Part shown: piece by piece, positions 951-6,069 of the stretch
Layout of the letters: the number at the start of each line of letters is the position of its first letter
Numbering within the stretch: the stretch's first letter is position 1
Position numbers and translations under genes: made by a program
Assembly (NCBI GenBank): GCA_016935435.1
Contig: JAFGQZ010000026.1
Span: 62,001 to 126,000, forward strand
Direction: 5' to 3'
Source of the DNA: Bacteroidales bacterium
Lineage (GTDB): Bacteria; Bacteroidota; Bacteroidia; Bacteroidales; UBA10428
Length of the DNA: 64,000 nt
Notes under the pieces: generated by a model
What the model was told of the DNA's origin: nothing
Database searches by the model: none
The model's input: only the letters and a program-made list of their open reading frames with translations

Positions 951-2048
951 ATGGCATTACAGTGTGGAATTATAGGGATTACCAATGTTGGAAAGACTAC
1001 TTTGTTCAATTGTATATCGAATACCAAGGGTGAAACAACAAGTTTTGCCTTTAGCTCTAACAAATCGAATATTGGCCTGGTGCTTGTGCCCGATCAGCGT
1101 TTAAAAAAGCTCGAAGAATTGCAGCCAACAGAAAAGTTGGTACCGGCAACTGTTGATATTGTTGATATTCCGGGGCTTACTAAAGGGGCCAACCAGGGAG
1201 AAGGGGTAGGAAATAAGTTTTTGGCCGATATCCGAAATACCGATGCGCTAATTCATGTTTTACGCTGTTTCGACGACGACAGCCTTCCGCATATCGATGG
1301 CTCTGTAGATCCGGTGCGCGATATTGAAACTATCGATTTCGAGCTCCAAATTAAAGATTTAGAGTCGGTGGAGAAAAAAATACTTCGCCTGGAGAAATTA
1401 ATAAAAACCGGCGATAAAGAAGCCAAATTTGGCCTGGAGGTTTTGGCCAAAGTTAAAGCCCATATCGAAAATATGGGCAACGTGCGCGACATGGAACTCG
1501 AAGAAAAGGAGCGTAAACACCTCGACGATATGTTCCTGCTTACCGTAAAGCCAGTTATGTACGTTTGCAACGTTGATGATGCTTCGGCCATAAGTGGCAA
1601 TACATACGTTGAAAAAGTGAGGGCCGCCCTTCACGGGAAAAATACCGAGATATTGGTAATTGCCGGAAAAATGGAGGCCGAAATTGCTGAACTCGACGAC
1701 GAGGCCGACCGGCTGGCATTTTTATCCGATGCAGGTTTAACAGAGCCCGGGGTTAATAAGCTTGTACGTTCGGCTTATCAGCTGCTTAACCTACAGTCGT
1801 TTTTTACTGTTGGCCCAAAAGAAATAAGGGCCTGGACAATTCATAAAGGAATGACTGCCCCACAGGCAGCCGGGGTTATCCACAGCGATCTCGAACGAGG
1901 CTTTATCCGTGCCGAGGTTATGAAGTATCACGATTTTATTACCCACAAATCGGAACATGCCTGTAAAGAAAAAGGAAAACTCTATGTCGAAGGCAAAAGT
2001 TACGTCGTTGGCGATGGCGATATTTTGCATATACGCTTTAATGTATAA
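951..2048 (+). CDS. ychF: Redox-regulated ATPase/GTPase YchF (OLA1 family)
   Basis: P-loop GITNVGKTTLFN, DIPGLTKGANQGEGVGNKFL, and the C-terminal TGS-like region are typical of YchF. Confidence 0.96.
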   Translation: MALQCGIIGITNVGKTTLFNCISNTKGETTSFAFSSNKSNIGLVLVPDQRLKKLEELQPTEKLVPATVDIVDIPGLTKGANQGEGVGNKFLADIRNTDALIHVLRCFDDDSLPHIDGSVDPVRDIETIDFELQIKDLESVEKKILRLEKLIKTGDKEAKFGLEVLAKVKAHIENMGNVRDMELEEKERKHLDDMFLLTVKPVMYVCNVDDASAISGNTYVEKVRAALHGKNTEILVIAGKMEAEIAELDDEADRLAFLSDAGLTEPGVNKLVRSAYQLLNLQSFFTVGPKEIRAWTIHKGMTAPQAAGVIHSDLERGFIRAEVMKYHDFITHKSEHACKEKGKLYVEGKSYVVGDGDILHIRFNV

Positions 2049-2165: not shown

Positions 2166-3818
2166 ATGTTGAATTTTTTCAGGTTTTCAGTTTTTAGTGC
2201 CCTTTTGGGGGCCATATTTGCGAATTCGTTGTGTGCACAGGGCTCAAAGCCAATTCCATCGGAAAAGCCAAAACTTATTGTAACCATTACGGTTACCCAG
2301 TTCCGGCACGATTATATTTCGCGTTTCTGGGACAAATTCTCCGACGATGGTTTTCGCAGGCTGGTTAACAGGGGCACTTATTGCCGGAACACAAACTACA
2401 ACTACCTTATCAGCGATAAAGGGGTTGGCACTGCTACTATTGTTACCGGCACAAACCCCTCGCGGCATGGCATAGTTGGCGAAAATTGGTACAACGATTT
2501 AAAAGGGCAGGTTGTTACTTCAATCTTCGACCAATCGGCAAAAACCATCGGAGGCCCTTTCGATGCCGGCCAATATTCCCCACAACAATTGTTATCGACA
2601 ACTTTTGCCGACGAACTTAACCTGTCGAACAATTTTAAATCGAAAGTAATTTCGGTTTCCCTTGAACCGGTTTCAGCGGTTATTAGTGGCGGGCATACTG
2701 CAAAAGCTGCATACTGGTTTGAGGTGCAGGGCGGAAATTTTATTACCAGCTCGTTTTATGCCGACTCTCTCCCTTTGTGGGTGGTTGATTTTAATAACAG
2801 GCGCTTCCCCGATATTTATATGGAAAAAACATGGTCAACAATGCTCCCCCTGGCAGAATATACCGAAAGCTTGCCCGACCAGAACCCTTATGAGCAAGGC
2901 TATAAAAACAGTGTTGTCTTTCCTTACGAAATAAAAGATATTGCAAAGATTTACAAAAAGAGGGAAGAGTATTCAATTTTAAAAACTACGCCTTTTGGTG
3001 ATAACCTTGTGAAAGATTTTGCCATTCAGGCAATTGTTAACGAAAATTTGGGGGCTGGCCCCCATACCGATGTTTTGTTCCTGAATTTTACGGCTCTTGA
3101 AGAAATTGGCAACATGTTCGGACAGTTGTCGGTTGAGGTGGAAGATGCAGTATTGCGCCTCGATCGCGAATTGGCACATTTTTTTAGTTTTATTGAAAGC
3201 ACAGTGGGTATCGAAAATACCCTGGTTGTGTTTGTGGCCGAGCATGGGCTTAACCATAAACCCGAATATCTCGAAGCTCACAAAATACCATCGGGTTATT
3301 TTAATTCGGCAAGCGCTATTAGCTTGTTGTCGAGTTATATGAACAATATTTACGGTAAAGGCGATTGGATTAAACAATACCATGCCCAACAGATATACCT
3401 TAACCGCACCTTAATTGAGTCGGCAAAACTTTCGCTAAGCTCGGTACAGGAAAATGTGGCCAACCTGATGCTCCAGTTTCAGGGGGTACAGAATACCATT
3501 ACTTCCACTGCCCTTACAAATACAAGTTATGTTAACGGGGTGTTCAGAAAAATACAAAACGGGTATAACCAGAAACGCTCCGGCGATGTGTTAATACATT
3601 TGGCCGACGGATATGTCGAGAAGCATGGTAAAAACATTGTGAGTTTTGGTACTGATACCCGGGTGCCCCTGGTTTTTTATGGATGGAAAATTGGGCGCAA
3701 AACCATTACCAGGCCAGTTGATTTAACCGATATTGCCCCAACAATTTCTGTTCTGCTCGATATTTCTTATCCGAATAGTTCGTCGGGGGTACCTGTTTCC
3801 GAAATAATTGCGCCCTAA
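2166..3818 (+). CDS. PafA-like alkaline phosphatase superfamily protein (probable catalytically degenerate member)
   Basis: Overall PafA/NPP-like pattern: RHDYISRFWDKF, TATIVTGTNPSRHGIVGENWY, VLRLDRELAHFF, VFVAEHG, VPLVFYGW, LTDIAPTISVLL; signal peptide at N-terminus. Several catalytic positions differ from consensus (see findings). Confidence 0.85.
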   Translation: MLNFFRFSVFSALLGAIFANSLCAQGSKPIPSEKPKLIVTITVTQFRHDYISRFWDKFSDDGFRRLVNRGTYCRNTNYNYLISDKGVGTATIVTGTNPSRHGIVGENWYNDLKGQVVTSIFDQSAKTIGGPFDAGQYSPQQLLSTTFADELNLSNNFKSKVISVSLEPVSAVISGGHTAKAAYWFEVQGGNFITSSFYADSLPLWVVDFNNRRFPDIYMEKTWSTMLPLAEYTESLPDQNPYEQGYKNSVVFPYEIKDIAKIYKKREEYSILKTTPFGDNLVKDFAIQAIVNENLGAGPHTDVLFLNFTALEEIGNMFGQLSVEVEDAVLRLDRELAHFFSFIESTVGIENTLVVFVAEHGLNHKPEYLEAHKIPSGYFNSASAISLLSSYMNNIYGKGDWIKQYHAQQIYLNRTLIESAKLSLSSVQENVANLMLQFQGVQNTITSTALTNTSYVNGVFRKIQNGYNQKRSGDVLIHLADGYVEKHGKNIVSFGTDTRVPLVFYGWKIGRKTITRPVDLTDIAPTISVLLDISYPNSSSGVPVSEIIAP

Positions 3819-3873: not shown

Positions 3874-4773
3874 ATGCATATTACAATGAAACAAACATAT
3901 TTTTTAAAGCTTTTTGTTACGGTGTTTTTTATATTAACAGGTATGCACACTTTTGCCGGCGATTCGTTAAGGATTATGTCGTTTAATACCCGATATACAC
4001 ACGCAAACGATGGTGCCGACAGTTGGCCTGTCAGAAAAGAATTGCTTCTAAAAACAATAGCTGATAATGCACCCGACATTCTCTGTCTTCAGGAGGCCAC
4101 ACCCGATATGTTGCGGGCCATTGGTGCCGCTTTTCCGGAGTTTATGTCTTACGGTTTGGGGCGCGACAGTATTCTTACCGAATATACCGAATCGTGCCAT
4201 ATTTTTTACCGTAGCATGGTTTTTTCTATCGATTCTGCAAACTCAGGCACTTTCTGGTTTAGTAATACGCCCAACGTAGCCGGAAGCAAAGGGTGGGGCG
4301 CCAACCACCCCCGAATATGCACCTTTGCAAGGTTTACCAGTAGCAAATCGGGCAGGGGCTTCAGTATTTATAACCTTCACTGGGATCATGAGTCGGTTGA
4401 GGCCCGGAACAACAGTTCGAGAATGCTCGCCGAATCAATTTCATCCAGGCCGTTTCCCTCTGAGGCTTGTTTTGTTGCCGGCGATTTTAATGCCACAGAC
4501 GATGATAGCTCGGTTTCCGGCCTATTAGATGGAAAACACCATTCTATAAAACTTACTGATGCATTCAGTAAGTTCCATAAACATGAATTGCCCGAAGAAA
4601 GTATTACTTTTCACGGCTTTTCGGGCAAAGGCACAAACCGCATCGACTTTATCTTTTACCTGTATGGCAATTCTATTGAAGTACGCAACGCAATTATTGA
4701 AAAATACAACGAGAACAACCGTTACCCGTCAGATCATTTTCCGGTAATTTGCGATTTTGTTTTCCTGCCATAA
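3874..4773 (+). CDS. Endonuclease/exonuclease/phosphatase family protein, secreted
   Basis: SFNTRY, CLQEA, YNLHWDHES, VAGDFNATDD, RIDFIF and PSDHFPV motifs; N-terminal signal peptide. Confidence 0.92.
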   Translation: MHITMKQTYFLKLFVTVFFILTGMHTFAGDSLRIMSFNTRYTHANDGADSWPVRKELLLKTIADNAPDILCLQEATPDMLRAIGAAFPEFMSYGLGRDSILTEYTESCHIFYRSMVFSIDSANSGTFWFSNTPNVAGSKGWGANHPRICTFARFTSSKSGRGFSIYNLHWDHESVEARNNSSRMLAESISSRPFPSEACFVAGDFNATDDDSSVSGLLDGKHHSIKLTDAFSKFHKHELPEESITFHGFSGKGTNRIDFIFYLYGNSIEVRNAIIEKYNENNRYPSDHFPVICDFVFLP

Positions 4774-4851: not shown

Positions 4852-6069
4852 ATGAAATACCTTGCTATTGTTGCTTTTGTTTTGTTGCACATTGTGGCTG
4901 CATTTTCGCAGACAAAAATTGTTGTCGAGAATAAAGCAGGCTCTTTATCTCCTGAATTTGATAGTGCTTTACAGCAGAAACTCACCGAATTCAATCTGGA
5001 ACTGGTCACACTAGTCGATTTCAAGAAGAAATGCGATTATTTTTTTGCTGAACTATTGACGGAAGGTCAAAATACATTGTTAAAATTGAAAAATTGCAAC
5101 GATATCCTTCTTGGAGAAAAAGACTTGGGGTATAGTTTCGACGTCTTAAACGACAACAATAAAGCCGTTGTGTTGGGCATTGCCATATTCGACATAGTGG
5201 AAAACCCTAAAGAATATGCAGCAAAGCAAAATTTCAACAAGGCCACGGAACAAAATCCGCCTGCGGCAGTAGAAGAAATACCCCTTGAAGCAGACATCCG
5301 AAATGGGCAACCAACCAACCAGCACCAGTCGCGGCATGTTTTTACCCCAACAGCCTTCAACCTAAAAAAGGGGGAACTGTATTACAATACCATGTACCTG
5401 GCAGTACACGATGTTCAATATGGCTTGAACAATCACCTTTCTATAGGCATGGGTACCACCGTAGGGCTGTTTCCTTTTTACATTACCCCCAAAGCAACCA
5501 TTTACCATGGGAACAAAACTGCTTTGGCAATCGGCGATATTATGATGATTGGCACCTGGGGCCGGTCGTTCTTCGGGAATGTTGCATATGGCGTTTTTAC
5601 AGTTGGCGATCAATTCAGGAATGTGTCGATTGGGGCAGGGCACCTCCATCTTTCGGGAGACGTTAACAACACAAACAATAAGGCTTTGTTCAATATTTCG
5701 GCTATGGTAAAACTTTCGGATTACTTTTATTTCATAACCGAAAACTACTATACATGGTTCGATGAAGAGATTTACCGCGACATTCTGCAATGGGTCGATG
5801 ACCCGTCGAACCCCGACCCTTTGTATGGCTGGCACGAGGTAACCGATACGAGGTATTATACCCGCACAAACAGTTTGGTGCTGGGGTTTGCAGGTATTCG
5901 GTTTATTAACAGGAACAAAGATATTGTTAGTTACCAGGCCGGAATGGGCTATTTATATGTTAATTATGGAAACACCCCTGCGGAGTTTAAAGAATTATGG
6001 CAGGTGTCTGATACTTTTATTGCCATACCAATGTTGAGCTACACGAAAAAATTTGGGAATCGGTATTGA
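4852..6069 (+). CDS. Hypothetical secreted/outer-membrane protein
   Basis: Signal peptide (MKYLAIVAFVLLHIVAAFSQ); C-terminal half rich in alternating aromatic strands suggestive of a beta-barrel. Confidence 0.7.
   Translation: MKYLAIVAFVLLHIVAAFSQTKIVVENKAGSLSPEFDSALQQKLTEFNLELVTLVDFKKKCDYFFAELLTEGQNTLLKLKNCNDILLGEKDLGYSFDVLNDNNKAVVLGIAIFDIVENPKEYAAKQNFNKATEQNPPAAVEEIPLEADIRNGQPTNQHQSRHVFTPTAFNLKKGELYYNTMYLAVHDVQYGLNNHLSIGMGTTVGLFPFYITPKATIYHGNKTALAIGDIMMIGTWGRSFFGNVAYGVFTVGDQFRNVSIGAGHLHLSGDVNNTNNKALFNISAMVKLSDYFYFITENYYTWFDEEIYRDILQWVDDPSNPDPLYGWHEVTDTRYYTRTNSLVLGFAGIRFINRNKDIVSYQAGMGYLYVNYGNTPAEFKELWQVSDTFIAIPMLSYTKKFGNRY

Follow-up and report, generated by a model that had tools for sequence, protein, structure and literature searches.

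The gene at positions 2166 to 3818 (forward strand) of a 64,000-nucleotide stretch of Bacteroidales DNA (contig JAFGQZ010000026.1, positions 62,001 to 126,000; hereafter the window) runs from ATG to stop and encodes a 550-residue relative of the phosphatase PafA. This protein is probably a pseudophosphatase: related to PafA both by position and by descent, it has a dismantled catalytic site and was kept for a non-catalytic role. An initial annotation, made from the sequence alone, had proposed such a protein, and the sequence, a fold model, the family comparison, the substitution rates and the synteny now support the proposal. The N-terminus (residues 1 to about 25) is hydrophobic and signal-peptide-like and is followed by the alkaline-phosphatase fold; the protein is presumably exported to the periplasm by Sec.

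Throughout its mature length, the protein matched the crystallized PafA (PDB entries 5tj3 and 5too; phmmer, E about 1e-107), with 36% identity over 510 residues. It also matched Pfam PF01663 with 93 bits (cut-off 23), while the NCBIfam model alk_phos_PafA (NF042991) gave 549 bits and did not reach its equivalog cut-off of 650.

We then compared the catalytic and ligand residues of PafA (D38, T79, N100, K162, R164, D305, H309, D352, H353 and H486), with equivalences taken from the phmmer match to 5tj3/5too and from multiple alignments. The numbering was verified against 5tj3, whose chain has each of the ten letters in place, and the 5too entry (PafA T79S/N100A/K162A/R164A) independently marks four of the ten sites as active site. 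We observed that nine of the ten residues were lost in the window protein, with H353 (its H360) the sole survivor. The nucleophile T79 is replaced by K85 (2418-2420). Among the metal ligands, D38 is replaced by T44 (2295-2297), D305 and H309 by E312 and N316 (3099-3113), and D352 by E359, which stands beside the only retained ligand, H360 (3240-3245); H486 aligns to a gap, and the set thus reads T, E, N, E, H, gap. The phosphate-binding residues are likewise gone, N100 being replaced by E106 (2481-2483), and K162 and R164 by E167 and V169 (2664-2672). All of these codons lie on the forward strand.

The alignment to PafA bore out the substitutions that the initial annotation had listed at D38, T79, D305, H309 and D352. 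That list was incomplete, since the three phosphate-binding positions are replaced as well, and one placement has to be corrected. The annotation had located H486 at TDTRVP (R499, 3660). H486 is indeed lost, but its place is nine residues earlier, as the His of TTHSVWN, in a short loop that is absent from the window protein. The corresponding segment, HGKNIVSFGTDTR (3624-3662, forward strand), lacks this loop and carries R499 in place of the neighbouring H495, which is the His of DSHIPL in PafA. H487 was considered as a stand-in for H486 and rejected, as it is His in one relative (L003) but Gln in another (L002) and hence not conserved. Neither the structure-based match nor the alignment placed intact ligands elsewhere in the protein, an arrangement that the annotation had named as the finding that would count against a pseudophosphatase. 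Judged from these residues, the protein very probably has no PafA-type phosphatase activity.

The fold, on the other hand, has been kept, as the initial annotation had claimed. An AlphaFold model built with 49 homologues had a mean predicted local distance difference test (pLDDT) score of 91.8, and its top Foldseek match was 5tj3 (template modelling (TM) scores 0.88/0.93, root-mean-square deviation 2.1 over 528 columns). Within the mature domain, the model was least certain in the region 480-500, around the absent loop. The model, the 5tj3 match and the PF01663 match all show the core fold of the alkaline phosphatase superfamily, and the loss of catalytic residues from a retained fold is one mark of a pseudoenzyme. 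The protein is a member of this superfamily by fold, and of the PafA branch by descent.

We found the gene in 21 of the 23 genomes of the window's family, mostly at 53-70% identity; one genome had only a fragment, and one had a second, intact copy. All 19 complete main copies in the family relatives were degenerate. The degenerate state that the initial annotation had asked about in relatives is therefore common to them, but the exact replacements are not, as they differ by lineage: position 79, for example, is K, I, L, E, Q or D. In the window's genome, no second PafA-type protein, an active copy included, was found at E 1e-5, and a PhoA-family phosphatase gene is retained. The sole other PF01663 match in this genome was a short stretch of an 853-residue frame (G000:C48:24883-25134, 33 bits).

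Beyond the family, a homologue was present in 171-174 of the 295 sampled genomes of the order Bacteroidales. The number of retained residues in 146 aligned homologues was bimodal, with 0-5 in 110 proteins, 9-10 in 36 and 6-8 in none. All 110 degenerate proteins came from Bacteroidales, which contributed 125 homologues picked by similarity and not randomly, while the homologues sampled from other orders of the class were all intact (20/20). In 16 intact homologues, the catalytic columns varied hardly or not at all. Together with the 110 degenerate proteins among 146 and the absence of any that keep 6-8 residues, this means that the residue loss is far beyond chance. In the degenerate proteins, conservation of these columns drops to ordinary or hypervariable; about 85-98% of columns are better conserved than positions 79, 164, 309 and 486. 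Structural residues such as G62, G102, W184, N210, D302, D327, D333, P501 and G506 remain 98-100% conserved in the same proteins.

The degenerate genes are under strong purifying selection. Seven degenerate pairs with an estimable synonymous rate (dS) had dS of 0.5-2.4 and a nonsynonymous rate (dN) of 0.03-0.09, giving a ratio of about 0.04-0.08, and a comparable intact pair gave 0.07. In nearly all homologues the open frame was full-length and free of internal stops. A sequencing artefact or a pseudogene was ruled out by these open frames, by the same state in independent genomes and by the low dN/dS. The old active-site columns now rank with the most variable ones, which could also be read as relaxed selection on a decaying gene heading for loss. 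The frames, the ratios, the presence of the gene in 21 of 23 family genomes and the recurrent synteny (see below) all contradict this, and we consider decay very improbable. Selection for a non-catalytic role, as the initial annotation had suggested, is instead highly probable.

The main rival explanation is that the protein is an altered enzyme acting on a different substrate, in which E312, E359, H360 and T44 would hold one metal or a nucleophilic water. Within the window's family, E312 is invariant (20/20), Ser occupies position 38 in 95% and H360 is present in 90%; within the genus, E359-H360 is constant. However, inside one family the nucleophile position takes six different residues, the phosphate-binding positions vary freely, and E312 and H360 are not retained across the order. 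As an account of the whole family, an altered enzyme fails, and we regard it as improbable. Still less probable is a carrier or sensor that would take up phosphoesters in the former pocket and leave them uncleaved, PafA catalysis being no longer needed. The PhoA-family phosphatase in the window's genome would fit such a history, as phosphate release there does not depend on PafA, but acidic or neutral residues have taken the places of N100, K162 and R164, which makes such binding unlikely.

Some observations weigh against the pseudophosphatase interpretation. Among the closest relatives of the window protein itself, dS was saturated, so that they give no dN/dS. As E312, E359 and H360 are constant within the window's genus, a residual one-metal or ligand site could conceivably persist there. 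The neighbourhood link described below is partial (17-20 of 40 loci) and varies by lineage, its members YchF, Ssb and MutY are housekeeping genes, and it may reflect inherited synteny rather than function. We nevertheless favour a pseudophosphatase. It could be a folded periplasmic binding or scaffold protein, in which the old catalytic pocket would be free to vary and the remainder of the alkaline-phosphatase fold would bear the selected function. The Bacteroidales thus seem to have turned an old enzyme to a non-enzymatic use.

How often catalysis was lost was examined by phylogeny. The main tree was built without the ten catalytic columns and with twelve long-branch rows excluded. It split with support 100 into a PafA clade, comprising the other orders, the PafA of Elizabethkingia meningoseptica and eight Bacteroidales copies, and a Bacteroidales-only sister clade, comprising every degenerate protein in the tree and seven intact ones. 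These seven have complete active sites (DTNKRDHDHH; L034, L035, L037, L040, L041, L044 and L058) and should be useful natural controls. In a careful 58-row tree, also without the active-site columns, degenerate proteins fell on both sides of the intact ones, the nested set having support 99/96. A single degenerate group appeared in 0% of its bootstraps and had p 0.033 in the approximately unbiased (AU) test. With intact proteins embedded among degenerate ones in this tree, it is likely that catalysis was lost independently at least twice. We put it no higher because an earlier test on a quick reduced tree could not decide: placing all intact proteins on one side gave an AU p of 0.53. With this result, and with short basal branches, a single loss in one ancestor, from which the seven intact members would be early branches, is possible but the less probable history.

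In the window, the gene order is a transketolase-like gene, the YchF ATPase gene (951-2048, forward strand), the pseudophosphatase gene and, 55 bases downstream, an endonuclease/exonuclease/phosphatase-family gene (3874-4773, forward strand). The upstream neighbour recurs at 20 of 40 degenerate loci; the downstream one was found at none of the 40 and is not conserved. Farther downstream (4852-6069) lies a 405-residue protein with a signal-peptide-like start and without a Pfam match at E 1e-3. Near the 40 degenerate loci we observed, besides YchF, GldE (18), geranylgeranylglyceryl phosphate (GGGP) synthase (18), GldD (17), Ssb (16) and an M14-type peptidase (12), while no gld genes were found at the catalytic PafA loci. 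YchF, GldD, GldE, GGGP synthase, Ssb and MutY were identified by NCBIfam. For DUF4105, SecA, CrcB and M14, we take the labels from the sequence and from general features of the families rather than from a profile search.

Of 20 catalytic loci, 6 had CrcB at or adjoining PafA, and in 5 of these it stood directly upstream; among the 40 degenerate loci, 5 had it nearby. An old neighbour common to both points to positional orthology between the degenerate genes and PafA. The six catalytic loci with CrcB, of the fluoride channel family, are in other orders of the class (L203, L204, L205, L208, L209 and L210). In many families the M14-type peptidase gene lay directly upstream of the degenerate gene, as at L119, L121, L122, L124, L128, L131, L135, L139, L146 and L148, and a type IX secretion system (T9SS) sorting tail was found on the peptidase of the L128 representative. 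A distant degenerate group (L154-L172; for example L155, L156, L160 and L165) showed the arrangement DUF4105-X-SecA at 15 of 18 loci, a conserved trio in which the degenerate gene stands between a DUF4105-like gene and secA, and SecA at 17 of 18. Its proteins have about 525-550 residues, with D38 mostly retained and nearly all the other residues lost.

As homologues adjoin gldD-gldE and T9SS-tailed peptidase genes in some families, and form DUF4105-X-SecA in others, envelope biogenesis or secretion may be the setting of these proteins, a tentative suggestion drawn from gene neighbours only. Co-occurrence with the T9SS was uninformative, since GldM (TIGR03517) is present in 269 of the 295 genomes of the order. 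A broader proposal is more speculative still, and we think it rather unlikely to hold in full: the order would possess exported pseudophosphatases that arose by at least two losses of catalysis and act as a dedicated envelope or secretion factor (with GldD/GldE or SecA/DUF4105), a function that the catalytic ancestor would already have had and that would have outlasted the loss of catalysis.

These findings bear on the use of PafA as a marker of phosphate-insensitive organic-phosphorus release. pafA has been reported in 78.7% of the phylum (PMC8115612). Most of the close Bacteroidales homologues sampled here cannot be PafA-type phosphatases, and homology-based counts in this order would therefore be inflated. 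A later survey dropped every sequence in which a key residue carried a point mutation before it built its phylogeny, and did not take these sequences up again (PMC8812569), which may be a reason why the degenerate homologues were overlooked. A conserved, exported and mostly single-copy pseudoenzyme near secA or gldD/gldE in many families also offers a lead to an envelope function, and the mixed clade of intact and degenerate members is a natural series for what becomes of a phosphatase fold after its enzymatic role ends.

Among known systems, the closest is the phosphate-irrepressible PafA of E. meningoseptica (5TJ3), with which the window protein shares full-length homology and the same fold; CrcB stands directly upstream of some PafA and some degenerate genes. 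The window protein differs from it in the nine lost residues, in a score below the NCBIfam cut-off and in its phylogenetic place, a Bacteroidales clade of its own. PhoK/SPAP of Sphingomonas (3Q3Q, 5XWK) has the same PhoK/PafA-type architecture (TM about 0.78-0.82), but PhoK is an active enzyme and the identity is only 22-23%. The NPP/ENPP family (PF01663) shares the Pfam match and is remote (11-12% identity, TM about 0.5), and its catalytic and metal ligands are absent from the window protein. As all the catalytic features tested and the NCBIfam equivalog cut-off were failed, the protein should not be named PafA. Pseudoenzymes, such as the iRhom pseudoproteases and the pseudophosphatases, are enzyme folds that stay under selection after their active sites have been dismantled. 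We found no described pseudo-PafA or Bacteroidetes pseudophosphatase in the open-access literature; the kind of pseudoenzyme is known, and this order-wide instance appears to be new.
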